A stretch of DNA of 35,023 nucleotides from Pseudomonadota bacterium (GTDB taxonomy: Bacteria; SZUA-182; DTGQ01): contig DAOURK010000034.1 of assembly GCA_030625085.1 (NCBI GenBank), forward strand, positions 1 through 35,023. The letters run 5' to 3'. The translations under genes and the position numbers were made by a program. This document shows, piece by piece, positions 1,032 through 25,367 of this stretch (the stretch's first letter is position 1; each line of letters begins with the position of its first letter). Under the pieces are notes generated by a model. It was not told the origin of the DNA. It worked only from the letters and a program-made list of their open reading frames with translations, and did no database searches.

Positions 1032-1284
1032 GAGCTTAAGTTAATGACATTGAGGTAAGTGTAATAAGAAAGTAGCTAATATTGGTAATAATTTTCGATA
1101 ATAATTCCAAAATACTTTTGGTTGTAAAAATATTTTAAATTTAAATAGTAAAATGATGGTCTGGTAAAAAATCCTGAATTAACAGGTTTAGGTAGTATAA
1201 TTATTTGATTTTATTAGGTATTATTTTTATAAATTTAATTTTTTACTATTACATCGTTAAATGATAAAAGGAGGCATAAAAATC

Positions 1285-1875
1285 ATGAGAAATAAAATTT
1301 ACTGGGAAAAAACAATGGAAGAAGCTCTTGGGCTGGCGCGCTCTAAAAATAAACCCATATTACTCGATTTTTTTAATCCTGAGTGAATCGGCTGCCAACA
1401 AATGGATGCAGTTACGTATCCAAATACCGGCATCATCAACTTCATCAATGAAAACATGATCCCTTTACGATTATCCTTTGATGCAAAACCATGGTCAGCG
1501 GAGTTTAATATTCAGTGGACGCCCGCCATTATTACTTTAGATCAAGAAGGAAAAGAACACCACCGAACAGTTGGGGGTTTTTCACCCGAAGAATTAATCC
1601 CTTCCCTGATACTGGGGATCGGTAAGGTGTATTTTGATGGGGGTGATTTTGATAAAGCAGCGCGAAACTTTGAAAAGCTGACGGATTATCCCAATAGTAA
1701 TTCGACACCTGAAGCCATCTATTGGCGGGGAATCTCCAAATTTAAAATCAATCATGATCCTACCACTCTTAAGGAGACATATCAATACCTTGAGGCTAAA
1801 TATCCTTCAAGTGAGTGGACCAAACGGGCTTATCCTTATAGCCTTTTAGAGAGCTTACATAAAGCAGCATTATAG
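1285..1875 (+). CDS. thioredoxin-fold selenoprotein (UxxC) with C-terminal helical repeat region
   Basis: Translation from the ATG at 1285 (AAGGAGG at 1268-1274) runs 33 codons to an in-frame TGA at 1384-1386 and continues open to 1875, giving 196 residues with selenocysteine at 34. The context is FFNPE-U-IGC-QQMDAVTYP, so UGA occupies the first position of a CxxC redox motif, exactly where relatives have cysteine. Residues 1-110 look like a thioredoxin fold of the kind found fused to a short TPR-like C-terminus (GKVYFDGGDFDKAARNFEKL onward); the thioredoxin cis-Pro is likely in QWTPAII. There is no signal peptide, so it should be cytosolic. A hairpin just after the UGA fits a bacterial SECIS. 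It lies 39 bp upstream of the Ni-SOD gene in the same direction. A conventional gene caller would start at 1402 and lose the active site. The alternative is a nonsense-mutated thioredoxin, but the UxxC placement argues against that. Confidence 0.82.
1404..1421 (+). promoter_or_regulatory. candidate bacterial SECIS hairpin
   Basis: GGAUGC (1404-1409) pairs with GUAUCC (1416-1421), including one G-U pair, around a six-base loop AGUUAC. The stem begins 17 nt after the UGA, and the loop G is 24 bases downstream of it, inside the usual 16-37 nt range. The stem and loop start resemble the E. coli fdhF element, which has a GGUUGC stem and an AGGUCU loop. Confidence 0.65.
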
Positions 1876-1914: not shown

Positions 1915-2367
1915 ATGAAAAAAATATTTATTCCGATTCTGTTACCGCTATTATTACTAGTTTTCGCCCTATCCAAGGCAGGCGCCCACTGTGAAATCCC
2001 TTGTGGAATTTATGATGATGGAATGAGAATAACTATGATTGCCGAGCATATTACTACTATTGAAAAGGCGATGAAGTTTATTATAGATCTTGAGAGTCAA
2101 AAGCCGATAAATCACAATCAAATCATCAGATGGGTTGTGAACAAAGATCATCATGCTGATGAGATTCAGCACATTGTCACTCAATATTTTATGACCCAGC
2201 GAATAAAGCTTGATGCCAAAAAATATAGTGAAAAATTGACCTTGCTTCACCAAATGCTTATTTACGCTATGAAATGTAAACAAAGCACTGACCTTTCCCA
2301 TGCAACCACTCTACGATCACTTTTAGAGAAATTCCGCAATCTCTATTTTGAAAATGCACACAAGTAG
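1915..2367 (+). CDS. sodN: exported nickel superoxide dismutase
   Basis: The 150-residue product has a Sec signal (MKK, then a long Leu-rich core) ending in AGA, followed directly by HCEIPCGIYDD. His1, Cys2, Cys6 and Tyr9 of the nickel hook are all present in the H-C-x-x-P-C-G-x-Y arrangement of Ni-SOD. The rest is the expected helical bundle. In Streptomyces a short propeptide is removed to free His1; here an ordinary signal peptidase site (A-x-A) would expose it, placing the enzyme outside the cytoplasm. It dismutates superoxide to oxygen and hydrogen peroxide. No sodX-like maturation peptidase is next to it, consistent with maturation by signal peptidase. AAGGAC precedes the ATG. It probably shares a transcript with the upstream selenoprotein thioredoxin. 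Confidence 0.93.
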   Translation: MKKIFIPILLPLLLLVFALSKAGAHCEIPCGIYDDGMRITMIAEHITTIEKAMKFIIDLESQKPINHNQIIRWVVNKDHHADEIQHIVTQYFMTQRIKLDAKKYSEKLTLLHQMLIYAMKCKQSTDLSHATTLRSLLEKFRNLYFENAHK

Positions 2368-2792: not shown

Positions 2793-4103
2793 TTAGATAT
2801 TATGGACTATTCTAGGCTTAGGAAATGGGAAGCTTACTTTAATCTTCTCAAACTTCTCCCAGCTAATCGCACCCTTGTGACTTCGCCGACTCAACCAGTA
2901 ACGCCATGCTTTCTCTGCATATTCGAACACGATCTCAAGTGCCTTGTAATTACACCGAACACCATAGTACTGATAGTACCCTCTCAATTTCGCACATAGG
3001 GTTTTGTATTGCTCTACAATCCGCTCGTGCCGGTTTTCTCTACACCATCTCCATAGGGCTTTCATAAATCGGCAGAGGCGCTTTCCCGCTGTTTTCTTCT
3101 TTATCACCCAGTAACCTCGACGTGATTTTGACCAATAGAAGGTGAATCCTAGAAAATCAAATGTGCCACTCACTGAATTGATTCTGATGTTCCTTGCCGG
3201 TTTTCTAAATGGTACTATCTGAGTCTTGTCCGGATGGAGGCTTAATCCATTCCTCTCGAACTGATTTGTCAGTGCAGCCATGATCCAGCGTGCATCAGAT
3301 TCTAATTCGCAGCATATTAAAAAGTCGTCAGCAAATCTGATAAGGAAGCACTTTCCCTTGCACTTTGGCTTGACCTGTTTTACAAACCAAGCATCCAGTA
3401 CATGATGAAGAAAAATGTTACTGAGCAGGGGCGAAATCACTGACCCTTGTGGGGTCCCCTTCTCAGGGTAGCTGATGTCCCCTTGCTCCATTACACCGGC
3501 ATTTAACCACTTGCCAATCAGCAGTAATATTCCTCCGTCGTTGACTCGCTGCTGAATAACTCCTCGCAGAATTCCTCGATCAATATTATCAAATAGTCCG
3601 GTTATATCCGCGCTCAGTACCCATCCAATATTCAACAACATACACTTCTCTCGTAGCTCCTGTATTGCTTGATGCTGACTAAAACCCTTGCGGAATGCAT
3701 AGGAGAAGTCGTAGAAATCCACCTCATAGATCTCCTGCAATATCATTACAACCGCCCTTTGGACCACCTTGTCCTCGAAGGTTGGTATGGAGATCGGACG
3801 CTTTTTCCCATCTTCCTTGTCTATCCATATCCGCTCTACTGGTGGGGCTATATATGTCCCCTCTCGAAGACGCTTACATAGATCCTCCAGGTTCTCTTCA
3901 AGGTTTGCAGCATACTGCTTGGCTGTTACCTTGTCCAGCCCTGGAGCCCCACCCTTGCGGGTTTTCCGATACGCTTCCCGTAGTAACTCAACATTCACCC
4001 TATGATATAGATTGTTGAATACCATATCCGGATACAGAGCTGCTTGCTCCGCAATCCTCTGAAGTTGTGTTGATATGGTTTGTGTCCCCAGAGTAACTCC
4101 CAT
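2793..4103 (-). CDS. ltrA: group II intron reverse transcriptase/maturase
   Basis: This 436-residue protein has all the core reverse transcriptase blocks: GAPGLDKVT near 52, RPISIPTFEDKVVQ near 102, ADITGLFDNID at 165-175 with catalytic Asp166, GTPQGSVISPLLSNI near 216, and RFADD at 256-260 (FADD in place of the common YADD). After residue 310 comes the maturase X domain with FDFLGFTF and the LRGYYQYYGV motif. There is no HNH endonuclease domain at the C-terminus, so mobility would depend on reverse splicing into target DNA or into forks. GGAGGGG precedes the ATG. The reading frame is intact, so the element may still be active. It assists splicing of its host intron and copies it at new sites. 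Confidence 0.93.
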   Translation of the reverse strand: MGVTLGTQTISTQLQRIAEQAALYPDMVFNNLYHRVNVELLREAYRKTRKGGAPGLDKVTAKQYAANLEENLEDLCKRLREGTYIAPPVERIWIDKEDGKKRPISIPTFEDKVVQRAVVMILQEIYEVDFYDFSYAFRKGFSQHQAIQELREKCMLLNIGWVLSADITGLFDNIDRGILRGVIQQRVNDGGILLLIGKWLNAGVMEQGDISYPEKGTPQGSVISPLLSNIFLHHVLDAWFVKQVKPKCKGKCFLIRFADDFLICCELESDARWIMAALTNQFERNGLSLHPDKTQIVPFRKPARNIRINSVSGTFDFLGFTFYWSKSRRGYWVIKKKTAGKRLCRFMKALWRWCRENRHERIVEQYKTLCAKLRGYYQYYGVRCNYKALEIVFEYAEKAWRYWLSRRSHKGAISWEKFEKIKVSFPFPKPRIVHNI

Positions 4104-4822
4104 ATTCCCCTCCAGAAAAACGTTGTACCCGGCCTCTCCTTCCCTTAAATGGGTCCCTTGGGCATCGGTTCCCCATCCTACCGGCCGGTGAAATATACTT
4201 CATCGACCATCGGTACTATGATTAGCTAAGACTGCCAAATGCCCTTCTCGGGTTCGTTCGCTCTTCGCTATCCTCCCCCGATACCTTACAGCGCTCCTCT
4301 TTGTTTGTGTCCCTTATTAGGACTCGTTTGGAAAGCTGGAGCTTCTCCCCAAACTCCGGGAGTTTTCCTTTCCGGCGGTACTCCTTAAACCTTATTCCAC
4401 TGTAAGGAGACAGTTGGCTCTCCCAAGTTCCCGAGTTACCCCTTTGAATACATGCCCTGCTCGTAAGACCCCGGTGGTATCCCAAGCGACCTCGCCTTAA
4501 CGTCCCCAGGATTGCTGCCTTCCAGCCACTCCACACTGTCGGCTTTCCCTCTGTGGTGTCCCTTGTTTCCCACATAAGGTTATCCTTTTGGACCACAACT
4601 ATACATTTTTCGGGGTTCTATCACACAGCCTGTATCCTTGTTCCATCCGGCTTCGGACTCCCCTTACGGGGTTTGCCCTCGAACTTCTCTACTGACCCGC
4701 TGGCTAAGCTTTAGTCAGGTGGGACTTTCCCTAATCCTCCGGGATCACCCACTGGGTAACAATAACCAATTTCATGGGATCTCTCCCATTTCCAAGATTT
4801 CGAGTTTATCTTGGCACGAAAA

Positions 4823-4922
4823 GGGCCTTGCTATAAGGCCGCCAATTGGGTACATGTGGGCACAACTACACTATTTAGAATTACAGGCTTGGAATCCCTC
4901 ATGAGAGGATTGCCAAGCGATT
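4823..4922 (+). pseudogene. DUF4338-type protein fragment, 3' piece
   Basis: From 4823 the frame reads GPCYKAANWVHVGTTT, continuing the RFSG of the left fragment and matching the RFxGTCYxAANW-VG signature. It loses similarity after VGTTT and stops at 4920-4922, so the gene is truncated at this end too. Because the intron lies on the opposite strand, it cannot be spliced out of this gene's message. Confidence 0.65.
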
Positions 4923-5042
4923 AGGGGCAATCCAAAGAACAATATCCAACTATAAAAGAAAAAATGCCAGAACTGGTAAATTTCCTAAAAGCCGATTTAT
5001 CCGAGGGGCTCACCCTTTCCTGAGTGGCCGAAAAGCACGGCG
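4903..5042 (+). pseudogene. decayed helix-turn-helix (ParB-like) remnant, copy 1
   Basis: From 4903 one frame reads ERIAKRLGAIQRTISNYK, a plausible helix-turn-helix. After a frame change it continues KEKMPELVNFLKADLSEG-LTLS, a stop, then VAEKHGG. This looks like the C-terminal half of a ParB-like HTH protein broken by a frameshift and a stop. A related remnant lies inverted at about 15880-15990. The remaining gap to 5300 has no gene. Confidence 0.4.
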
Positions 5043-5423: not shown

Positions 5424-8400
5424 ATGGATCAGAAAGATATATCTTTTTTAGACATAGATCTCGGCCCCCACGATATTCAAGCCCTCAACGATTCAAAGGC
5501 CATATCAGCTTTCTTTGCTCGACTTCGTTATAATACTAATGTACATATAATACAATCACCCGGGAACTTGGGTATTAATGCAGAGGGTATTGTCCGCTCT
5601 ATTAAAAACATTGAGCTCATAGCTGATCAGGATGGACTTTTTCAAGTTTATCTTTTTGAACTCACCAGTGTAACTGTAGGAAATATACTTGCCTTAGGAA
5701 AAGCTTTTCGCAATCGGGCGGGGAATTATCTTTTAGTGCTCACCAGTGATTATGAACGACTCGATTTTGTGGTCCTTGAAAAATATTTGCCACCTGGGAA
5801 GGGAAGCGGCATAGGTGCAAGCCAAAAACAGGTAGGTATTCGCCCTCGTGTTTTAACTATCGAACGGCGCAAACCTAGCCGAATCCATCTAAGAGTTATA
5901 CGGCGTTTTACCTGGACAGAATCAGACCCTTTTGCTCAGTATGATAAGCTTCTATCTGCCTACACTGTTGCAGAATGGTCTGAGGAATTTTTTAACAATC
6001 GTGCCCTTTTTTCTGATTACTATCTCCTTGAAAGACTGCGTGGATTTTCAGTATGGGCTGAAGATCCGAAGCCTTCTTATCTTCGCCTACTTGAACTCTA
6101 TCATGGAGCAGCCGTGCGATTTGTTAATACGGAAAAGGCCTCTTTAAAAAAAGAATTATTGGAGCCGGTTTTTAAAAAATTAGGATTTCAAGCTATTGCA
6201 AGTAAAAACCCGGTAAAGGATGTAACTGAACCAGATTATCGCCTCTTCTCACTTTCCAAAGGAGAGACAACATCCAAAGATTTGGCTCCCCTGGCTTTAT
6301 GCCTTGTTTACCCATGGAATAGATTCTTGGATGGTAAGGATGATCTCCGGGACAAAGAAAATCCTGATGATAATCCCAGCGCAATAGTAGTTAGCCTTCT
6401 TGATAAGGGCGAATCACCATGGGTCATATTAACAAACGGAAAACTTTGGCGGCTTTATGCACAACAAGCCCATTCTCGCGCAACGAATTATTATGAAGTT
6501 GATATTGAAGAAATCCTGGCCCAAGCCGGCCCTCATATCATTAATCCTGCAGAATCCTTTCGCTATTTCTGGTTATTTTTCAGGGCACAGGCATTTAGGC
6601 AGGAAGAGTTTGTTCATGAAGGTAAAAAGAGATATCTTTCTTTGCTGGATCAACTTTTTCTGGAAAGCAATGAGTATGCTAAAGAATTAGGAAAACGCCT
6701 TAAAGAACGAGTATTTGAGGAAATTTTCCCCTACCTTGCCTCCGGATTCATTACCCATATTCGCCAAAATGGAATTGGGTCCTTTACCTCACCTGATAGC
6801 CGAAATAAACTTCAGGGAGCTATCTCTCCTGACAGCTTTCCAGAGGAAATCTTAGATGCCGTTTTTCAGGGAACATTAACCCTTTTCTATCGGCTACTTT
6901 TCTTACTTTATGCAGAAGCACGTGATCTTTTGCCGGTGAAGGAGGTCCGTGGTTATTACGAAGAAAGCCTCACGAAAATGAAAAGGGAGATAGCTGGTAT
7001 TGCTAAAGACCTTCCTGATGGAGTCGAGAAGAATATCAAAAATGGCTATCATGAAAATCACTATGAGCTTTATGACCGCCTTCTTAGCCTTTTTAAAATA
7101 GTGGACAACGGCAATCCATCGCTAAACGTGCCTGTTTACAATGGCGGATTATTCCTTTCGGACCCTGCACATGATGATGACAGTATGGAAGCACAGGTTG
7201 TAAGATTTCTGAATACAACCAAAGTGCCCGATCGTTTTCTTGCGCATTCGCTGGATCTGCTCACTCGGGATGTTGATTCGAAACGACATGATCTGGTTTT
7301 TATTGATTACAAATCCCTCGGGGTGCGCCAACTTGGATCAATTTATGAAGGGCTTTTAGAATTTAAGCTCCGCATTGCTGCACGAAAGTTAGCCGTAGTA
7401 AATGAAAAAGGGCGCGATGTATATAAGACTTTCCGTAATCTTGACACTAAAGAGCAAGAGAAAGCAGAACGTCATGGCCGGGTAATTAAAAAGGGTCAAA
7501 TTTACCTAGAAAATGATAAAAGTGAAAGAAAGGCTTCAGGATCTTACTATACTCCTGATCATATTGTGAATTATATAGTCGAAAATGCTGTAGGATCTGT
7601 GCTGGAGGAAAAATTTGATTCAATTCGGCCAAAACTTCGGGACGTCCAACAAAGGCGACGTGCTTTTTTTCAAAAACAGGAAGCTCTCCAAAGGCAAGGC
7701 ATTAAGCCGGAGCCTGCGAGTAAAGCAGAGTTTATAGGACAGGAATTAGTCAATGAACTTTTCGCTATTAAGGTGCTTGATCCTGCTATGGGTTCCGGCC
7801 ATTTTCTTGTGGAAGCTGTTGACTATGTTACAGATAAATCCCTTCATTTCTTAAACTCCTTCCCCTGGAATCCGATCTTTGCATACTTGGGGCGGATGAG
7901 GGAGACAATCCTTCAGGAGATGGAAAATCAGGGAATTACAATTGATGTTAAAAGGTTGACAGACATTAATTTGCTGAAACGGCATATTTTAAAGCGTTGC
8001 ATCTATGGGGTAGACCTAAATCCAATGGCTGTGGAATTAGCCAAAGTTTCACTCTGGCTTGATTGTTTCACCCTTGGTGCTCCGCTTTCCTTCTTGGATC
8101 ACCACCTACGATGCGGTAATTCATTAATAGGGGTTGCAGTGAAGGAGGTTAAGCAGGCAGTCGAGCCGGTAACCCGCGTCAATACAAAAACCAAAGTAGC
8201 TGCATCAGCTACAGAATGGAAGACAATAAAATCCCGCGTTGTTAAATACACCCTCTTTGGCAGCCGTTTTGCCGGCCTACTTCTGGCTACAGACCTCATG
8301 CGCCATGTGGGCGAACTGTCTGACGTCACCAGCGCACAAGTGCATCAATCGAGAAATGAATACAGAAAAGCTTCCGACGCGCTTGCTCCATTCAAACGTA

Positions 8401-10058
8401 TTCTGGATGTGTATACGAGCCAATGGTTTGGTAATGAGACGAAGAAACAAGGAAAAAGAAAAGCCAGTGCAGAGTCTCCATTTGTAACATTTCTTAAAAA
8501 ACCTGAAGCAGAAGCCTTTATCACTGCTTGTGATAAACAATCCTTAAATCAAGCACGTGAAGCTCTCTCGCCAGAGGATCGCCAAATTGTTGAAACTGCC
8601 CTTGAGGCTAAGGCTGAAAAAAAATTCTTTCACTGGGAATTAGAATTTCCGGAAGTCTTTTATGGCCCGCGCCCTGGGACAACTCAGGCTATTGAGCGAA
8701 AGGAAGGCGCTGGTTTCGATGCGGTAATCGGAAATCCGCCGTATGATGTACTGGCAAGTCAGGAGCTCGGCTATGATATATCAAAGGATTTGACTTTTTA
8801 CGAGACAACGTCGCTCTTTAAACCGGCAATTCGAGGAAAGAAGAATCTCTATAAACTTTTTATATGTCGCGGTTCAAGTATAATGGGGCAGTCAGGGGCT
8901 TTTTCTTTTATTGTCCCTATGGCCCTTTTAGGGGATGACCAAGCTGTAGGTGTGCGAAGATTGCTTCTTGAGAAAACCAGACTAATAGCTATAGAATCAT
9001 TTCCTCAAAAAGATGATCGAAATAATCGAGTTTTTTTTGAAGCTAAGCTTCCCACTACTATTTTTATTTCCCACGCAAAGTCCATAAACATTTCTAACTA
9101 CATAACTATCAGGACACATCCTGGAAAGTTCATAGATATTAATTCACCTAAGCTTAATGTGGTTCCTACAGAAATTTTAGCCTTTGACCCAGAGAATGCG
9201 GCAATTCCGTCTTGTACACAAAAAGATTGGAAAATTGTGATCCATATCTTGGCATCTAATAACATACGTCGTATGCGAAAAATTGCTAAGTCCTTCCAAG
9301 GTGAAGTAAATGAGACCAATGAAAGATCAAGAGGTACCCTTACAGATGAAATCAGAGCTCCCATAACTCTTCGAGGGTCTAACATTTGTTTATATGCTGT
9401 TCGAGAACCTTCCCAGGGTGAGGAAGTTAGAATTGATAGAAAAAAATTCCTTGCAGGTAAGAAAAAAGATGCCAAAGCCTTTGCCTTTGAGAAGGAACGA
9501 GTTGGATTTCAGCGCAAATCCCCTCTAAATAACTTCAGAAGAATTATCGCTGCCCATGTTCCGAAGGGTAACTTTTGTATTGATTCTGTGAGCTATATTA
9601 TTGAAGAATATTCAGAGGTAGATCTTGATTTATTGCTTGCACTGCTCAACTCAAAAATTCTAGATTGGTATTTCAGGCTCGGAAGTACTAATTCAATGAT
9701 CAATGAATATCAGGTTAACTCATTACCAGTCCCGGCATTTGCAGAGAGAAAATTGGATATTAATTGGAAAACAATTATGGATAAAGGGCAGTGGGATGAC
9801 ATGAGTGAGCTTCTTTGTTCGTCTTGCACTGCCCCTGGGTTAATGACCAGCTCAGTTGTAGAAGCTCTTATTGCCATGTGTCGCCGCATACAGGAAATTG
9901 AGGAAAAGCGTATACTTAAAAACCGGACTGAACGATCCCATCTTGACCCTGCAAGCCAGCCCATACAAGATGCTATTGATGCGGTTCTCTTCAAATTTTA
10001 TGGCCTTTCCAAGAAAGAAGCTCAATATATTAACCAGCGCCTAAAGGAAATGCTTTAA
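5424..10058 (+). CDS. Eco57I-like N6-adenine DNA methyltransferase of a defence operon
   Basis: This 1544-residue protein contains a complete gamma-type adenine methylase: motif I DPAMGSGHF at 786-794, YGVDLNPMAVELAK at 861-874, and catalytic NPPY at 1104-1107. The C-terminal 300 residues fit a target recognition region, ending in a helical tail. Around 250-345 lies a domain like the N-terminal PD-(D/E)xK nuclease of type IIG enzymes (EPDYRLF, then PLALCLVYPWNRFLD, then WVILTNGKLWRLY). The expected E-x-K is L294-V-Y296, so it looks catalytically dead. The first 230 residues are not recognised. AGGA lies before the ATG. An Mrr-like gene follows after 21 bp, and a PLD-SNF2 helicase lies farther down. 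It likely marks host DNA so that the partners attack unmodified DNA. A PglX-like (BREX) role was considered, but no other BREX genes are present. Confidence 0.88.
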   Translation: MDQKDISFLDIDLGPHDIQALNDSKAISAFFARLRYNTNVHIIQSPGNLGINAEGIVRSIKNIELIADQDGLFQVYLFELTSVTVGNILALGKAFRNRAGNYLLVLTSDYERLDFVVLEKYLPPGKGSGIGASQKQVGIRPRVLTIERRKPSRIHLRVIRRFTWTESDPFAQYDKLLSAYTVAEWSEEFFNNRALFSDYYLLERLRGFSVWAEDPKPSYLRLLELYHGAAVRFVNTEKASLKKELLEPVFKKLGFQAIASKNPVKDVTEPDYRLFSLSKGETTSKDLAPLALCLVYPWNRFLDGKDDLRDKENPDDNPSAIVVSLLDKGESPWVILTNGKLWRLYAQQAHSRATNYYEVDIEEILAQAGPHIINPAESFRYFWLFFRAQAFRQEEFVHEGKKRYLSLLDQLFLESNEYAKELGKRLKERVFEEIFPYLASGFITHIRQNGIGSFTSPDSRNKLQGAISPDSFPEEILDAVFQGTLTLFYRLLFLLYAEARDLLPVKEVRGYYEESLTKMKREIAGIAKDLPDGVEKNIKNGYHENHYELYDRLLSLFKIVDNGNPSLNVPVYNGGLFLSDPAHDDDSMEAQVVRFLNTTKVPDRFLAHSLDLLTRDVDSKRHDLVFIDYKSLGVRQLGSIYEGLLEFKLRIAARKLAVVNEKGRDVYKTFRNLDTKEQEKAERHGRVIKKGQIYLENDKSERKASGSYYTPDHIVNYIVENAVGSVLEEKFDSIRPKLRDVQQRRRAFFQKQEALQRQGIKPEPASKAEFIGQELVNELFAIKVLDPAMGSGHFLVEAVDYVTDKSLHFLNSFPWNPIFAYLGRMRETILQEMENQGITIDVKRLTDINLLKRHILKRCIYGVDLNPMAVELAKVSLWLDCFTLGAPLSFLDHHLRCGNSLIGVAVKEVKQAVEPVTRVNTKTKVAASATEWKTIKSRVVKYTLFGSRFAGLLLATDLMRHVGELSDVTSAQVHQSRNEYRKASDALAPFKRILDVYTSQWFGNETKKQGKRKASAESPFVTFLKKPEAEAFITACDKQSLNQAREALSPEDRQIVETALEAKAEKKFFHWELEFPEVFYGPRPGTTQAIERKEGAGFDAVIGNPPYDVLASQELGYDISKDLTFYETTSLFKPAIRGKKNLYKLFICRGSSIMGQSGAFSFIVPMALLGDDQAVGVRRLLLEKTRLIAIESFPQKDDRNNRVFFEAKLPTTIFISHAKSINISNYITIRTHPGKFIDINSPKLNVVPTEILAFDPENAAIPSCTQKDWKIVIHILASNNIRRMRKIAKSFQGEVNETNERSRGTLTDEIRAPITLRGSNICLYAVREPSQGEEVRIDRKKFLAGKKKDAKAFAFEKERVGFQRKSPLNNFRRIIAAHVPKGNFCIDSVSYIIEEYSEVDLDLLLALLNSKILDWYFRLGSTNSMINEYQVNSLPVPAFAERKLDINWKTIMDKGQWDDMSELLCSSCTAPGLMTSSVVEALIAMCRRIQEIEEKRILKNRTERSHLDPASQPIQDAIDAVLFKFYGLSKKEAQYINQRLKEML

Positions 10059-10079
10059 AATTGGAAAGTTATTAAACTA

Positions 10080-11552
10080 ATGGACCTTTTAATCCTAGGT
10101 AAAGATAGCAATGAAAAGGGTAGTCAGCTTGAGCACCTTACCAAGTATCTACTACAATATTTGGGGTATAAAGAAATTGTCACAAATGAAAAAGGAGCTG
10201 GTGGCCATGAGATTGATGTTAGAGCCGAGATAGTATTGCCATCTTTAGGAAAGGAGATAAAACATCGTGTAATTTGTGAATGCAAAGCTCATAAATCACC
10301 AATTAAAATGAATGATTGGCTAAAATTCCTTGGTAAAATTTATCTTGAAGAATCTCAGCTCAAAAGTGAAGTAACCGGTTGTTTCATTGCTCTTTCAGGT
10401 GTAAATGGGAATGTTTCAGGAAATTATGACCTACTTCAGCGACATCGCGCTAATATTCAATTAATTACTGGAAATCAGCTTGTCCAACTTCTTGGCAAAA
10501 TATATTGCCTTATCCCAACTGATGCCCTTATAATTCGGTTAAGAAAATTTACATCCCGCCAATTCGTTAAACTCTCCCTAGTCTACTACCATCATAAAAT
10601 TTATTGGTTAGTGGAATTCATGGATTCATGCTTCTCCTTACTGACTCATCTTGGTGATACAATCACTTCCGATCATGAAGCGGAGGTAAAAAAGCTAGTA
10701 TCTCAGTCAATATCTGCAGGACAATACATCAATTTAGAAGCCGAAGCCGCAGCACGCAAGCATACTTTTTTAGCTGAAAAAATCGTTATAGGGCGACTAA
10801 TGTTACTCAATGGTGAAGGAGATTCAAGGCAAGTTTACGATGAATTGCGGACAACATGTTATAAGGCATATGAATTATATTCCTATCAGGATCTTTACAC
10901 TGCTGCTGAGCATCTCTCAAATAAACAATGGTTCAAGATAGATAATTCCCTAAATACTTGGCGGTTACTTCCAGAGAACGAGCATTTAATATCACTCTAC
11001 CGTTATTTTTTAACTGGTGAAACGGTCACTTGGGCAATTGGAAGCCCATTTTATGATCAATATATCAACTCTGAATTATTATCAAAAATTTGTAAAATAC
11101 AAGGAGGTATTGAAATACCTGAAAATAGGGTGGATAGTTGTATTAAATTATTGCGGTGGTCACCGAAAGCTCTCGCCTGGGCACTTTATCCTGATCCATT
11201 TTTGGTTGGTTACCAGCGTCAGGGACTTCCACTTGATAAACGTATTATAGATAGTTATTTTAGATACTTCATTGGCAAATTGATCGATCATTTTAATGCA
11301 GATTTCCAAAGACATGAATTTTATAAATATTTTTATGAATTAAGGGGCTTACGGGAAACAGACACAATACGACGCATTTTAATTAAAGGAACTGAAGATA
11401 TTGAAATTGAATTGGGCCATAGTGAGCGACTTGAAATCGGACCAGTAAGCCCAAATTATGGCGGTGGTTTTATTATGATGTGGCTTATTGATGATTCCCC
11501 TGAGCTATCCGATAGTGTAAAGAAGGAAGACCCCTCGAAAGATAAAAATTAA
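10080..11552 (+). CDS. Mrr-like restriction endonuclease fold protein
   Basis: Residues 14-130 of 490 have the Mrr-type PD-(D/E)xK arrangement: a helix with LEHLTKYLLQYLGY, then GGHEIDV with Asp46, then VICECKAH with Glu67 and Lys69, and a helix followed by strands (GCFIALSG). All catalytic positions are present. The rest, about 150-490, is mostly helical and not recognised. It ends in a charged, possibly flexible tail. The gene starts 21 bp after the methylase stop, so the two are probably cotranscribed. In context it is the natural nuclease partner of a methylase whose own nuclease-like domain has lost its active site. An alternative is a modification-dependent (type IV) enzyme. DNA cleavage is an inference from the fold. 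Confidence 0.75.
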   Translation: MDLLILGKDSNEKGSQLEHLTKYLLQYLGYKEIVTNEKGAGGHEIDVRAEIVLPSLGKEIKHRVICECKAHKSPIKMNDWLKFLGKIYLEESQLKSEVTGCFIALSGVNGNVSGNYDLLQRHRANIQLITGNQLVQLLGKIYCLIPTDALIIRLRKFTSRQFVKLSLVYYHHKIYWLVEFMDSCFSLLTHLGDTITSDHEAEVKKLVSQSISAGQYINLEAEAAARKHTFLAEKIVIGRLMLLNGEGDSRQVYDELRTTCYKAYELYSYQDLYTAAEHLSNKQWFKIDNSLNTWRLLPENEHLISLYRYFLTGETVTWAIGSPFYDQYINSELLSKICKIQGGIEIPENRVDSCIKLLRWSPKALAWALYPDPFLVGYQRQGLPLDKRIIDSYFRYFIGKLIDHFNADFQRHEFYKYFYELRGLRETDTIRRILIKGTEDIEIELGHSERLEIGPVSPNYGGGFIMMWLIDDSPELSDSVKKEDPSKDKN

Positions 11553-11633
11553 ATGGTTCAACAGAAAAGTAGATAAAGGCAATTTTAAGTAATAATAAGC
11601 TCGAATATTTCCCAAGTTAGGGGAATGAGGTTT

Positions 11634-11662
11634 TTGACAACTTTGTATGATATTTATAATAT
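11634..11662 (+). promoter_or_regulatory. strong sigma70-like promoter for the toxin-antitoxin pair
   Basis: TTGACA at 11634-11639 is followed by TATAAT at 11655-11660 (15-bp spacer), overlapping TAATAT at 11657-11662 (17-bp spacer). It lies about 40 bp upstream of the DUF433 gene, in the 148-bp gap after the Mrr-like gene. It gives the pair its own transcription inside the operon. Confidence 0.65.
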
Positions 11663-11664
11663 AG

Positions 11665-11928
<264 letters not shown>

Positions 11929-11938
11929 GATACTGACT

Positions 11939-12292
11939 ATGAAATTTAAAATTGACGAGAACCTGCCAAAAGAATTAGCCTTATTGCTTCAGCAAAAGGG
12001 GCATGATGCGGTAAGTGTGCTGGATCAGGAGCTTGGTGGAAAACCAGATAAAGAAATTGCCTTAGTTTGTCAAAATGAAAAACGTTCCTTAGTAACCTTA
12101 GACAAAGATTTTGCCGATATTCGCCATTATCCTCCCCGAGAGTTTTCAGGGATTATTGTATTTCGTCTTAATCACCTAGATAAACCCCATGTGCTTGAAA
12201 TTTTAGAGCATCTAATACCGATATTTTCCCGGGAGCCTCTTGAACATCACCTTTGGATAGTGGAAGAGGACAAGATAAGAATAAGAGATTAA
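11939..12292 (+). CDS. DUF5615 PIN-like toxin
   Basis: This 117-residue protein begins MKFKIDENLP, with the conserved Asp6-Glu7-Asn8 of the PIN-like DUF5615 (Mut7-C-related) fold, and has LVTLDKDFAD with Asp55 and Asp57 in the second acidic cluster. The C-terminal GIIVFRL strand and HLWIVEEDKIRIR end are also typical. A longer frame opens at 11882 inside the antitoxin gene, but the ATG at 11939 gives the family's usual N-terminus. It probably acts as a metal-dependent RNase. The pair sits between the Mrr-like and helicase genes and may stabilise the island or act as a back-up abortive module. Confidence 0.85.
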   Translation: MKFKIDENLPKELALLLQQKGHDAVSVLDQELGGKPDKEIALVCQNEKRSLVTLDKDFADIRHYPPREFSGIIVFRLNHLDKPHVLEILEHLIPIFSREPLEHHLWIVEEDKIRIRD

Positions 12293-12393
12293 CCTAATCA
12301 TTAAACCATTATTTAATTTTCAAACTACTTGTTTTACTTATTTACCTTACTGTTTTTAGAGACAGCCAAAATGCAGTATAAAGGCTTTACACT

Positions 12394-15300
12394 ATGAAAA
12401 TCCCTTATGTTATTGACAATCAGTCAAATTTTTTAGCCGATATTCTTAATAAAATACTTATTACCAAACACAAAGGCCGGTCCCTTGACGTGGCTACGGC
12501 TTATTTTACTGTTGGTGGTTTTGGCCTCATCAAAGAAGGGCTCATGGGGTTGGGGAATTTTCGTCTGCTCCTTGGGGCAGAGCCCACTATGGGTGAACAT
12601 ATAGGGATACGGCCAGACTCAAGGAAAGTAAAAAATCAGATAAAAAAAGATTTAGAGTATCTTCCTTTCGATGAAAAGACCTTGCGCTTTGTAGAAGACC
12701 TGATTGCCTACCTAAGCACCGACAAAGTGGCAGTGCGACTGCATGAAAAAGGATTTCTTCATGCCAAATGTTGGCTTTTTTACTCTGACCGCCCAGGGCA
12801 ACAAGCGCTCTTCAATCGCTTCCGCCCGATCCTAGCCATAGTCGGCTCATCCAATTTCACCATACCCGGCCTCACCTCTAACAGTGAACTTAACTTATGC
12901 CATAAGATACTTCTTGATCAAGAAGAAATAGAAGATATTGATGCTGCTAATGCTGTCTTATGGCTCACAGCTACTAAACCCAGCGAGCGGGTAAGCTCAA
13001 CAAACCGCCAATTGATGAAAAGTGAAGTCGGCGCACGGGCCATAATTGATTTAGAGAACTGGTATGAGAGACAATGGGCTGATGGCCGGGATTTTAAGGA
13101 AAATCTGATTAAATTATTAGATGCTTCAAAATTTGGGAAAAAGGAATATACCCCTTATCAGGTCTATATGAAAGTACTCTATGAATATTTCAAGGACGAA
13201 TTGGCTGAAGGAATACCTACCGCAACCCGGTCGGCTATTGATCTTGCAGAGTTTCAAGAAGATGCTGTCAAAAAAGCGCGTAAAATACTGGCCCGCTATG
13301 ATGGTGTCATGATTGCGGATTCAGTTGGCCTTGGGAAAACATGGATTGGCAAAAAACTCCTGGAGGACTTTGCTTACCACTTGAGGCAAAAAGCCTTAAT
13401 CGTCTGCCCGGCAAGTCTTCGTGAAATGTGGGCACGGGAATTGACCGAAGCGAATATTCCGGCAACAGTGCTCTCCCAGGAGGAATTGGGACGCGAAGGC
13501 TTCACCCCTGCCATGTGGCAAGATGCGGATATTGTCCTGATAGATGAGTCCCATAACTTTCGCAATCGAAACTCCCAGCGCTATGCGCAACTTGAAAGTT
13601 TGCTGGGCGCAAATGGAGGCAGGGGCCGCGATGGTGCCTTAAAAAAAGTGATCTTGCTTACAGCCACCCCTATCAATAACGACCTTTTTGATCTCTATAA
13701 CCAACTGTGCCTGATCACTCGAGGTGACCGAAGTTACTTCTCAGCTTGTGGTATCGGCGACATCTACCGCTATTTCCTCAAGGCGCGTCGTGATTCGAGA
13801 AAAAACAGCAGCGCCTTTGCGCTTTTCAATCTGTTGGAAGAAATTGTGATCCGGCGCACTCGGCCTTTTATCCGCCATGCCTATCCTGAGGCAACAATCA
13901 GGGGGAAAAGAATCCATTTTCCACAACGCAGGCTAAAAACTGTTCAATATAACTTAGAATCTACCTACTCCGGAATTTATGATGAGGTTGTATTTGGCAT
14001 CGAAAGCTTAAAGCTTGCCCCTTACAACCTTGAAGAATATAAAAAAGCCGGGATTACCATAGATAAATTTGAGGCAGGCCGTGAACAAGCCTTGGTAGGA
14101 ATATTCAAAAGCCGATATTTGAAGCGATTTGAGTCGAGCATTGAGGCATTCCGCATTAGTATAAGACGTGGGCTTGAATTCCTCAAAACCTTTGAGTCCT
14201 ATATTCTTGATGGCCGTCTTCTTAAAAGCAGCCAATTTCACAAGGCCTTGCAATATCTCTCCCGCGAAGATGAGGAAGACGATGCAACGCCCACATCCCT
14301 GGCAGATGACATGGATGACAACGAGGAAATAGGTAAGATCTTAGAGGAAATGGAAACTATAGATCCCGCCATGTATGATTTAAGAAATCTTCATGGAGCG
14401 GTTCAGCATGATGTAGAGGTTATTTCCGAAATATGGCAAAAGATTAAAAATATCAATCCTGCAAACGATGCCAAGTTGATTCGTTTGAAAGAGCTTTTAT
14501 CAAAAACGCTCCAAGGGAAAAAAGTTCTCATTTTCAGCTATTACAGGGATACAACGCGGTATTTGTACCGCAATTTAGGGCATCCGGATATTCCTCAGGC
14601 TGTAGAATTCTGCAAACAACTTGGCGGCATAAGAGTGCGAAGAATGGATAGTGGCGCTGATCCAAAAGAACGTCTGCGCATCGTCCAAGGATTTGCTCCT
14701 AAGGCGAATGATAAAAGTGAATGGCTCGGAACTGATAAGGAAATCGATATCCTCATATCCACCGATGTTCTTTCAGAAGGACACAATCTTCAAGATTGTG
14801 GTTATATGCTGAACTATGACCTCCACTGGAATCCAACCCGCATGGTTCAGCGAGCAGGAAGGATCGATAGGATTGGAACCGAATTTGATACCCTTTGGAT
14901 CTATAATATGTTTCCTGATGATGGTCTTGAACGATTGCTGCGGCTGGTGGAGAGTCTTAGTCGAAAAATTGCCGCTATTGATCGAGCCGGTTTCCTAGAT
15001 GCAAGCGTGCTGGGTGAGATCGTTCATCCTCAAAACTTCAATACTCTTCGAAGAATTTGTGAAGAAGATGGAACGGTGATCGAAGAAGAGGAACAATTTA
15101 CCGAACTTGCCAGTAATGAGTTTTTAGTCCAACAACTTCGTTCTCTTTTAGCTTCCGGCGGGCAGGAAATGTTGGATACCTTGCCTGACGGCATTCATTC
15201 CGGGTTAATAAAAGCAGGTGCTAGCGGGATATTTTTTTATTTCCAGGCTGATGACACAACAGGCGGAAAGTTCCATTTTTGGAAATATTATGACTTAAAA

Positions 15301-15807
15301 AGCCATCGATTTATTGATAACCGCTATCTCATCGCCAATCTCATCTCCTGTGAGAAAGATACCCCTCGGGTAGTTGATCCGGAAGTATTCAGCGCCATAT
15401 TTGATATAAAAGAGAAAGCCGTCAATAGTATTCTTCGCTCACATCAAGAACAACAAGCCTTAAAAGCAGCGCCACGTGCTATAGATCCTATACAACAAAC
15501 TGTGGCAACCGCCATACAAGGCTATCTGAATCATCCAACCATAGAGCGCAAATTGGCCATAGACGCCATTAAATTTTTAAATCAACCTATGCTGGCTATT
15601 CAAGTGCGTGCACTTCGCAAAGCATATAAGGAGTTTCAACAAAAATCAGAGATCCAATCCCTCTTAACCGCTGTAGAGGAATTACGGGCCAAATTTGGTG
15701 AGCAATCATCATCCGCCATGGGCAATGGCAATAGAGGCAAACCTGTTTGCCCAATTAAACGCGAAGATCTTCGTTTAATCTGCTTTGACTTTGTAATTGG
15801 TGGATAA
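12394..15807 (+). CDS. PLD nuclease-SNF2 helicase fusion
   Basis: This 1137-residue protein starts with a phospholipase D-type nuclease domain (residues 1-200) with H123-A-K125 and GSSNFT at 151-156. A SNF2/superfamily 2 motor follows: GLGKT at 312-316, DESH at 384-387, TATP at 423-426, an acidic insert near 625-645, STDVLSEGHNLQ near 789 and QRAGRIDRIG at 819-828. The last 280 residues are not recognised. It should translocate on double-stranded DNA and carry its own nuclease. Together with the Eco57I-like methylase and the Mrr-like protein it forms a restriction-type system. DISARM also uses a SNF2 helicase and a PLD protein, but as separate genes and with DUF1998 proteins that are absent here. 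Confidence 0.88.
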   Translation: MKIPYVIDNQSNFLADILNKILITKHKGRSLDVATAYFTVGGFGLIKEGLMGLGNFRLLLGAEPTMGEHIGIRPDSRKVKNQIKKDLEYLPFDEKTLRFVEDLIAYLSTDKVAVRLHEKGFLHAKCWLFYSDRPGQQALFNRFRPILAIVGSSNFTIPGLTSNSELNLCHKILLDQEEIEDIDAANAVLWLTATKPSERVSSTNRQLMKSEVGARAIIDLENWYERQWADGRDFKENLIKLLDASKFGKKEYTPYQVYMKVLYEYFKDELAEGIPTATRSAIDLAEFQEDAVKKARKILARYDGVMIADSVGLGKTWIGKKLLEDFAYHLRQKALIVCPASLREMWARELTEANIPATVLSQEELGREGFTPAMWQDADIVLIDESHNFRNRNSQRYAQLESLLGANGGRGRDGALKKVILLTATPINNDLFDLYNQLCLITRGDRSYFSACGIGDIYRYFLKARRDSRKNSSAFALFNLLEEIVIRRTRPFIRHAYPEATIRGKRIHFPQRRLKTVQYNLESTYSGIYDEVVFGIESLKLAPYNLEEYKKAGITIDKFEAGREQALVGIFKSRYLKRFESSIEAFRISIRRGLEFLKTFESYILDGRLLKSSQFHKALQYLSREDEEDDATPTSLADDMDDNEEIGKILEEMETIDPAMYDLRNLHGAVQHDVEVISEIWQKIKNINPANDAKLIRLKELLSKTLQGKKVLIFSYYRDTTRYLYRNLGHPDIPQAVEFCKQLGGIRVRRMDSGADPKERLRIVQGFAPKANDKSEWLGTDKEIDILISTDVLSEGHNLQDCGYMLNYDLHWNPTRMVQRAGRIDRIGTEFDTLWIYNMFPDDGLERLLRLVESLSRKIAAIDRAGFLDASVLGEIVHPQNFNTLRRICEEDGTVIEEEEQFTELASNEFLVQQLRSLLASGGQEMLDTLPDGIHSGLIKAGASGIFFYFQADDTTGGKFHFWKYYDLKSHRFIDNRYLIANLISCEKDTPRVVDPEVFSAIFDIKEKAVNSILRSHQEQQALKAAPRAIDPIQQTVATAIQGYLNHPTIERKLAIDAIKFLNQPMLAIQVRALRKAYKEFQQKSEIQSLLTAVEELRAKFGEQSSSAMGNGNRGKPVCPIKREDLRLICFDFVIGG

Positions 15808-22316: not shown

Positions 22317-25300
22317 ATGTCTTTTAACCCTCTCCTTTGGAATCGACTGGAGTTAAACCAGGTGCCCATATATCTGAGAAATGATAAACCGCATTGGTTT
22401 GTGCCTAATAAGTCCGGAGATGAAATACTATGCCGCTTATCTCAAGATCTTACCCTAAGCGCTGATCTTGCCGCCAGGCGATTTCTCGACCGGCTGCCTG
22501 CTGATTGTGCCTCCGATTATCCAGGCCGCGCCTCATTATTGAAGGTACCAACTTTGCGGGAACTTTGGTTTCACATTACCAACCGATGTAATCTGACCTG
22601 TACTCATTGTCTATGCAGGTCTTGTCCGGAAGAAAAGAGTGAAATGCCGGTTGATGGAGTCCTTAAAATTGCAGATGAGGCCTTCAATATGGGGTGTCGG
22701 GTATTTGCTCTGACTGGCGGTGAACCTTTTATCCATAAAAATTTTACTGACCTTATTGATGGACTCCTATCCTACAGGAACATCCATGTGGTCGTCCTGA
22801 CCAATGGAATGAATTTACGCAATTGTCTGGGAAAAAGGCACCGGGATTTTGATCGATTTCATCTTCAAATCAGCCTCGATGGACTCCAAAAAAACCATGA
22901 TCTCATCCGAGGCAATGGAAAATTTGACAAGCTTTTTCAAGAGTTAAAATGGCTTAAGGCTGAAGGCATCCCCTTTACTCTTTCCATGTGCGTTGAAAAG
23001 AAAAATCTCAATGACATGCCAAAAGTGGTGGATTTGGCAGCAGAAGCAGGCGCAAGCAATATTCATTTTATGTGGTACTTTATTCATGGACGAGGTAATA
23101 AAGAAGATTTTGTTCCTTCAGACCGCATCTTTGAATATTTGCTCAAAGCTGCTGAGCAGGCACAAATTTATGGGATACCTATTGATAATATAGAGGCGAT
23201 GAAAACCCAGATTTTTGCGCCCAAAGGCACTATTCATGATGGAAGCACCGCAGGATGGGAATCCGCTGCCGTTGGACCGGACGGCAAATTGTATCCTTCG
23301 GCGGCCCTGGTGGGTATAGAAGTTCTGGCTACTGATATGAAAAAAGGTCTGGTTTCAGCCTGGCAGGAAAGCCCGGTATTAGAAAAAATACGCCGGACAT
23401 CAATTGTAAAACTTTCCTCTCCCTGGCGATTTATCCTGGGGGGAGGTGATATGGATCATAGTTTTGTTCATGCAGGCTCCTTTACCGGCCAAGACCCTTA
23501 CCTACCGCTTTATGAAAAAATAGCTCTATGGCTGATTGCCAAAGAAGCTTTACAGCAGAGGGATAAAGAAAAACCGGCTTTGCGCCTCAAGATGGGAGAT
23601 ATTCTTGAAAGCTGTGGCGCTCATGGCTCTGTGGCCCTTGTTCATTCCAATTGTCTTTTAGCTTTAGCCCAGGAAAACAGCTTGACTGTGGTGAAAGAAT
23701 TTTATTCGGATGCAGCCGGCGATCTCAAGGAAGACATACTCAATCCTGTAAGCTATCAGGATGATCTAATAATGCATATCCCTGAAAAATTTCGATTCCG
23801 CGGCTATGGATGCGGAAGCCCTGTCATGGATGCGGACCTCAAAGATGGTGAGTGTGTTGTTGATCTTGGGTGTGGCAGTGGAATCGAATGTTTTATCGCC
23901 GCACGACTGATCGGTAAAGCGGGCTGTGTCATCGGCATTGATATGCTCGATCCTATGTTGAGCTTGGCCAGCCAAGGGGCAAAGTTTGTGTCTCAAAATC
24001 TGGGATATAAAAACCTCACCTTCTGTAAAGGATATCTGGAAAATCTGCCGCTTCATGATAATTTAGCTGATGTTGTGTTATCAAATTGCGTGATGAATCT
24101 TTCTGTGCACAAACGCCGCTCTTTTGCTGAAGCCTTCAGGGTGCTGAAGGAAGGGGGGCGCCTGGTTATATCGGACGTGGTATGTGAGACTGAACCGGAC
24201 GCTGCTATTCGAAATAATAAAACCCTGCAAGGCGAATGTATTGCAGGCGCCATGACCCAAACAGACCTCCTTGCCATATTGGAAGAGTCAGGATTCGAAT
24301 ATATTTATTTTATCAAACGCTTTCCCTATCGAATTGTCAATGGACATCCTTTTTTTTCATTAACTTTAGTTGCTCGAAAGCCTGCTTATTCTGAGCCGGT
24401 CAAGGTGATGTATCGGGGGCCGTTTGCTTCGGTGGTAACCTCAAAAGGAAAAATGATGTCCCCGGGCGCTATACACGAACTTTCAAACCACGAGGCCTAT
24501 ATCTTAACTGAGCATATGTTTATCCTCGACTACCAAGGCGCTGTAACCAATGTGGAATTGGAAAACACCTGTGCCTGCTTTATTTCTCCTGAGGAAAAGG
24601 TGAACAATCAATCACAGGAGGACCAAAAGCCGGACTCAGGCCGGAGCGCATCTTCAAGGTTTTCTTCCGGCTGCATGGTGTGTGGCGCACCACTGATTTA
24701 TTTGCCGGAAGATAAAATAAGGCAGTGTACCTATTGTAAAAAGTCCTTGTCGGCTAATGCAGTATGCCGGAACGGCCATTTTGTTTGTAATTCCTGTCAT
24801 TCTGAGAAAGGCCTTGAGGTAATCGAGCATATTTGTCTGGAGACCAAAGAAACTGATATGATTACCCTGTTCAAAGAGATTCGCAAACATCCGGCCATTC
24901 CTATGAATGGCCCTGAATATCATTCGTTAGTGCCGGGTATTATCCTTACCACCTATCGAAATCTCGGTGGACCAATGCCCTCCTCGATCATTAAAACCGG
25001 CATCGATCGGGGTGCAAAAGTTGCCGGAGGGTATTGTGCGTTTATGGGAGTATGTGGTGCAGCCATCGGTGTTGGTATAGCTTTTAGCCTTATCTTGGAT
25101 GCAAACCCCTTAAAACCAAAAGAGCGTAAGATCGTCCAATCAGTTACTCAGGCAGTTCTTGCAGAGATTGCAGCACTTAAAGCGGCCCGCTGCTGTCAAA
25201 GGGACTCATGGATTGCTCTGAAAAAAGCCGCTGAACTATCTCAAACTTTCTTGCCTATTGCTTTAAATGCAGAAAAACGTCTTACATGCCATCAGCAGCA

Positions 25301-25367
25301 TCAAAATACAGAATGCATGGGGATCAACTGTCCCTTGCAAAAGATGAATTCTCTCTCAATCAGATAA
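22317..25367 (+). CDS. radical SAM + ArsM-like methyltransferase + DUF5714 fusion
   Basis: This 1016-residue protein has three parts. Residues 75-330 form a radical SAM domain with C91-x3-C95-x2-C98 and GGEPF at 134-138; the following region has no obvious auxiliary cluster cysteines. Residues 490-690 form a SAM methyltransferase very like arsenite methyltransferase: GYGCGSP (C499), VDLGCGSG at 515-522, SNCVMNL (C591) and GECIAGA (C641), so all three catalytic cysteine positions of ArsM are filled. Residues 780-1016 have zinc-ribbon-like cysteines (C786, C789, C804, C807, C817, C824, C827) followed by a DUF5714 domain with YCAFMGVCGAA. GAGGAG precedes the ATG. The ABC importer genes upstream run in the same direction, so a shared pathway is possible. 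The substrate is unknown; arsenic is one option among thiol-reactive metalloids and cofactors. Confidence 0.82.
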   Translation: MSFNPLLWNRLELNQVPIYLRNDKPHWFVPNKSGDEILCRLSQDLTLSADLAARRFLDRLPADCASDYPGRASLLKVPTLRELWFHITNRCNLTCTHCLCRSCPEEKSEMPVDGVLKIADEAFNMGCRVFALTGGEPFIHKNFTDLIDGLLSYRNIHVVVLTNGMNLRNCLGKRHRDFDRFHLQISLDGLQKNHDLIRGNGKFDKLFQELKWLKAEGIPFTLSMCVEKKNLNDMPKVVDLAAEAGASNIHFMWYFIHGRGNKEDFVPSDRIFEYLLKAAEQAQIYGIPIDNIEAMKTQIFAPKGTIHDGSTAGWESAAVGPDGKLYPSAALVGIEVLATDMKKGLVSAWQESPVLEKIRRTSIVKLSSPWRFILGGGDMDHSFVHAGSFTGQDPYLPLYEKIALWLIAKEALQQRDKEKPALRLKMGDILESCGAHGSVALVHSNCLLALAQENSLTVVKEFYSDAAGDLKEDILNPVSYQDDLIMHIPEKFRFRGYGCGSPVMDADLKDGECVVDLGCGSGIECFIAARLIGKAGCVIGIDMLDPMLSLASQGAKFVSQNLGYKNLTFCKGYLENLPLHDNLADVVLSNCVMNLSVHKRRSFAEAFRVLKEGGRLVISDVVCETEPDAAIRNNKTLQGECIAGAMTQTDLLAILEESGFEYIYFIKRFPYRIVNGHPFFSLTLVARKPAYSEPVKVMYRGPFASVVTSKGKMMSPGAIHELSNHEAYILTEHMFILDYQGAVTNVELENTCACFISPEEKVNNQSQEDQKPDSGRSASSRFSSGCMVCGAPLIYLPEDKIRQCTYCKKSLSANAVCRNGHFVCNSCHSEKGLEVIEHICLETKETDMITLFKEIRKHPAIPMNGPEYHSLVPGIILTTYRNLGGPMPSSIIKTGIDRGAKVAGGYCAFMGVCGAAIGVGIAFSLILDANPLKPKERKIVQSVTQAVLAEIAALKAARCCQRDSWIALKKAAELSQTFLPIALNAEKRLTCHQQHQNTECMGINCPLQKMNSLSIR

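Follow-up and report, generated by a model that had tools for sequence, protein, structure and literature searches.

Thioredoxin-fold selenoproteins with a UxxC active site are a well-known kind of protein. TsoB and the VPGUxxT and Trx7/PDZ selenoproteins (NF045694, NF041382/3, NF041199) are thioredoxin-like and carry selenocysteine (Sec), and among the selenoprotein families in Table 1 of a 2026 inventory is one named 'Thiol:disulfide interchange protein' (PF13098, UxxC, WP_011366075.1; PMC13188914). An N-terminal thioredoxin domain followed by a C-terminal TPR domain is the arrangement of CnoX/YbbN. CnoX combines holdase and redox functions; the form found in Caulobacter is an oxidoreductase with a CXXC motif, and the TPR part of the E. 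coli protein is built of two five-helix subdomains (PMC8129009).

The window, a 35,023-nucleotide stretch from a Pseudomonadota bacterium, carries on its + strand a gene (1285..1875) for a 196-amino acid protein with Sec at residue 34, a thioredoxin-fold domain (residues ∼1-106) and a TPR domain (∼107-190). The best Pfam match of the protein is PF13098 (41.1 bits, cut-off 27), and PF13174 (TPR_6) is also above its cut-off (30.3 bits against 26.3). The first-pass annotation had described a UxxC thioredoxin-fold protein; this description holds, and is extended by the conserved C-terminal TPR domain. A thioredoxin domain above cut-off, a C/UxxC motif and a downstream TP motif, which together mark a thioredoxin-fold oxidoreductase, were all found, and UIGC and WTP are invariant or nearly so. 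Thioredoxin_2, Thioredoxin_7 and DsbH-type models match all 24 aligned members of the family, and TPR_6 matches 22 of them. The residues invariant in this alignment are W7, D28, F29, U34, G36, C37, W78, T79, P80, G97, L162 and W178.

The protein and the WP_011366075.1 family are alike in PF13098, in the UxxC motif and in Sec number, and they may be one and the same family, a comparison made by description only. By sequence, the protein shares a superfamily with the DsbD C-terminal domain, DsbH (PF03190) and thioredoxin_7 proteins, but it scores far below the respective NCBIfam cut-offs, lacks a membrane domain and has a fused TPR domain. Its similarity to TsoB and to the VPGUxxT and Trx7/PDZ selenoproteins is weak (14-37 bits against cut-offs of 275-805), and motifs and architectures differ. 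Unlike CnoX/YbbN it has Sec in place of Cys/Ser, and it is smaller (∼190 amino acids), with a reduced TPR part. Membership in the CnoX/YbbN family was considered and is not supported: the NCBIfam YbbN/CnoX models match none of the 24 members, the protein is too short for two TPR subdomains, and the structural similarity is low. In an AlphaFold model built from a two-sequence input (pLDDT 76.8 overall, below 50 at active-site residues 30-43), the top PDB fold match was E. coli YbbN/CnoX (3qou) with a TM-score of 0.37, followed by Trx, DsbD, AGR and YbgF-TPR, all with low TM-scores. In NCBIfam release 20.0 the protein lies below the cut-off of every model, and the 24 members match the same distant models; NCBI annotation therefore probably truncates members of this family. 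No Sec-containing thioredoxin-TPR protein appears in the term-matched passages of selenoproteome reviews and of the deep-Sep, Sargasso and marine Deltaproteobacteria papers. We see in it a modestly novel case of a selenoprotein family that is widespread but under-annotated, with a representative in a small phylum.

We read the product as a probable thioredoxin-fold oxidoreductase of the cytoplasm, a location to which the lack of a signal peptide on visual inspection points. In the proposed mechanism, Sec34 would act as the attacking nucleophile, Cys37 would resolve the selenenylsulfide, and Pro80 of the WTP motif would be the active-site cis-proline. As in CnoX chaperedoxins, the TPR domain might serve to hold a substrate or a partner protein; we put forward such a CnoX-like mode of action tentatively, by analogy of architecture. 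A broader proposal, which we regard as rather unlikely to hold in full, is that this unnamed, Sec-dominated thioredoxin-TPR family constitutes a selenium-based chaperedoxin of anaerobes, whose selenol, being more reactive, would protect or repair TPR-bound clients and which would have entered the phylum of the window horizontally, into a host already equipped for Sec.

Alternatively, the protein could be a true selenoprotein whose TPR part does not hold substrates in general and which serves as the dedicated reductase of a single partner. A candidate partner is encoded 39 nt further downstream, in the same orientation, by a Ni-superoxide dismutase gene (1915..2367, +; PF09055, E = 7e-33, 114 bits) whose product has Ni-hook cysteines that must be reduced. 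The two genes are possibly operon partners, although this arrangement falls outside the conserved context of the family. Clustering of the neighbourhoods of 82 loci revealed no conserved partner gene, and the recurrent neighbour clusters do not include Ni-superoxide dismutase; a search of the genome that carries the homologue L024 (see below) likewise revealed no relative of the dismutase. Furthermore, the dismutase begins with a signal-peptide-like stretch and is probably exported. We consider a dedicated reductase quite unlikely. The nickel hook of the dismutase, HCEIPCGIY, directly follows the signal-peptide-like stretch, which ends in AGA; this suggests that signal peptidase, and not a dedicated SodX protease, matures the enzyme. 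The dismutase had no PDB sequence match.

From ATG 1285 to the TAG at 1873-1875 the reading frame (coding part 1285-1872) is interrupted by a single in-frame TGA, at 1384-1386 (+). When this codon is read as Sec, U34 falls within FFNPEUIGCQQM (NPEUIGC), at the place of the first Cys of the thioredoxin-fold CxxC, and C37 takes the resolving position. A Shine-Dalgarno sequence, AGGAGG (1269..1274, +), is located 10 nt ahead of ATG 1285, and a strong one precedes the equivalent start in most homologues. The plain list of open reading frames shows only 1402..1875 (+), a 157-amino acid product that starts at Met40 and has lost the active site. The first-pass annotation had anticipated each of these features: a UGA at the first Cys of the CxxC, a frame open and in phase on both sides, a strong ribosome site and an automatic gene call cut back to 1402.

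The truncated frame raises the question of whether the TGA is an ordinary stop followed by a restart at ATG 1402, to give a 157-residue TPR protein without a redox site. This ATG is in frame, and Met40 is ∼90% conserved. However, no ribosome site precedes 1402, whereas the start at 1285 and those of most relatives have a strong one; the 33 codons that lead up to the TGA show conservation at the protein level, and two full-length relatives, L133 and L143, encode Cys at the TGA position, which the first-pass annotation had proposed to look for in homologues. Translation restart is thus very improbable.

A scan of GTDB species genomes returned one relative, L024, from a metagenome-assembled genome of the Desulfobacterales, with 54% identity and a TGA at the equivalent residue; in the 38 bases that begin with the TGA and take in the hairpin described below, it differs from the window at only two (36 of 38 identical). 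A profile made from these two proteins was run over 395 genomes of the phylum of L024, probably Desulfobacterota, and matched in 104 of them. In the loci retrieved from these genomes, a TGA falls exactly at profile column 34 in 80 sequences, which represent 76 genomes. All are UxxC: UIGC (62), ULGC (8), UGGC (3), UTGC (2), UVGC (2), UGAC (2) and UGSC (1). Hence about one in five of the sampled genomes (76/395) carries a gene that has no name in NCBIfam and whose active site is expected to be lost in standard annotation; a dedicated model for the family would repair many gene calls. These data also bear on the suggestion that the gene once encoded a Cys protein and owes its TGA to a nonsense mutation or a wrong base. 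In favour of it, the source is a single draft assembly of 247 contigs, and TGC or TGT is one change away from TGA. The same codon in 80 sequences of 76 other genomes, many only 35-63% identical, refutes it, and the hairpin after the TGA is conserved as well. A pseudogene or a sequencing error is extremely improbable, and the wrong base that the first-pass annotation had named as a possible point of failure is not borne out.

Bacterial SECIS elements are recognized as a hairpin immediately downstream of the UGA with a small loop that contains G (PMC1088965). In the window, a predicted SECIS hairpin (1403..1422, +) directly 3′ of the TGA has a six-bp core stem, GGATGC/GTATCC (1404-1409/1416-1421), an outer T-A pair and the small, G-containing loop AGTTAC (1410-1415). 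The stem-loop spans 18-35 nt past the TGA, and by folding the TGA-to-loop distance is 23 nt. Both this distance and the presence of a G among the first two bases of the loop are usual in bacterial SECIS models. Rfam, searched for SECIS models, gave no match. The prediction rests on folding, conservation and covariation. The full six-pair stem is present in 68 of 81 sequences, the window included. When synonymous codons were redrawn 1000 times from the codon usage of each gene, the full stem occurred in 8.4 sequences on average and in 18 at most, although this control overstates independence because the 81 sequences are related, a bias that affects covariation less. Shifting the 3′ arm by 1-4 bases left 0 or 1 fully paired stems among the 81.

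Covariation was observed at three stem pairs: one is G-C or A-T (70/8), the next A-T or G-C (50/16), and the third T-A or A-T (63/4). In several of these cases a base change that alters the amino acid in one arm goes with a change in the opposite arm that is either synonymous or also alters the amino acid, with Asp GAT found with Tyr TAT, Gly GGT with TAC, and Glu GAA with Phe TTT. The GAT/TAT, GGT/TAC and GAA/TTT couplings are a clean example of an RNA structure that constrains the active-site region of a protein. Of the 13 incomplete stems, nine belong to one clade of the GGACGC-GGTC-GCGTACC type, which could pair with a bulge. The full stem was absent from all 15 Cys-containing homologues and more distant paralogues checked. 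The earlier claim of a SECIS-like hairpin at legal spacing is thus upheld, with a stem conserved in relatives.

The source genome (4.94-Mb assembly) encodes SelA (547 bits), SelB (380 bits), SelD (383 bits) and tRNA-Sec (70 bits). The genes for SelA and SelB are adjacent on one contig (C17), and those for SelD and tRNA-Sec are on two others (C73 and C83). The first-pass annotation had proposed a search for selA, selB, selC and selD, whose absence would have counted against it; all four were found. SelD itself reads through a TGA (GUAAKLGPGDL) at its known Sec site, so that the genome already decodes TGA as Sec at another gene. A genome-wide reassignment of TGA, or its reading as Trp or another residue, would explain why a conserved gene tolerates an in-frame TGA, but it can be dismissed as hardly credible given the complete Sec machinery, the position of the other in-frame TGA seen, in SelD, at a known Sec site, Cys rather than Trp at this position in homologues, and a hairpin confined to TGA-bearing members. 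The gene in the window is almost certainly a genuine bacterial selenoprotein gene, with Sec insertion deduced from sequence: UGA 1384 would be decoded by SelB and Sec-tRNA(Sec), directed by the downstream hairpin.

In the sampled phylum, SelA was found in 72 of the 76 genomes with the Sec gene and in 283 of the 319 without it; the difference runs the way a functional link would predict but falls short of significance (p = 0.14), and the association is weak because SelA is nearly universal there. At a threshold of 1e-60, SelA was not found in four Sec-bearing genomes (G014, G051, G087 and G161). Three sequences from such genomes (L099 from G087, L101 from G014 and L111 from G051) form one clade that has kept the TGA and has a different hairpin, GGACGC-GGTC-GCGTACC. 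The Cys-encoding L133 lies inside a Sec clade (98/84 support) and retains 4 of the 6 stem pairs, and SelA had no match in its genome, G297. This switch from Sec to Cys, in a genome whose search yielded no SelA, offers a natural test of the trait.

In the phylum of the window (nine genomes in total), searches at the level of order, class and phylum did not find the gene in the eight other genomes. In the tree, the window sequence groups with sequences that all come from the other phylum, in a 55-member clade; the support (96/87) is for the clade as a whole and does not fix the place of the window sequence inside it. Horizontal transfer into the phylum of the window would be the simplest reading of this topology, with gene loss in the relatives as the alternative. 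Mis-binning of the contig was considered and rejected on the basis of a repeat common to ∼20 other contigs, a 93% identical intron on another contig (C22) and a tetranucleotide correlation of r = 0.94. No family member was found on viral contigs, and none on plasmids beyond one weak Trx match in Prevotella.

Further Sec proteins were seen among the retrieved loci. The L067 locus (10505-11155, -) encodes a second Sec-containing family member in its genome, with an N-terminal signal-like extension, and it is possibly exported. L159 and L160 (∼4001-4324, -) represent a second group of Sec thioredoxin-like paralogues with the motif YLEGUPHC or YMEGUPHC; this group has Cys relatives with YLEGCPHC and lies below every NCBIfam cut-off.

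The intron and repeat that link the contig to its genome are located downstream of the dismutase gene. The group II intron with its reverse transcriptase/maturase (2793-4728, -) was recognized by an Rfam D1D4-6 match, and the dispersed repeat (4867-5000), with 71-91% identity to its copies on the other contigs, adjoins it. An apparent restriction/defence cluster follows (5424-15807, +), with a 1544-amino acid Eco57I/DrmMI-like methylase, an Mrr-type nuclease, a DUF5615 PIN-like protein and a 1137-amino acid HKD+SNF2 helicase. Finally, a 1016-amino acid protein (22317-25367, +) in which radical SAM, methyltransferase and DUF5714 domains are fused adjoins an NMT1/THI5-type ABC transporter.
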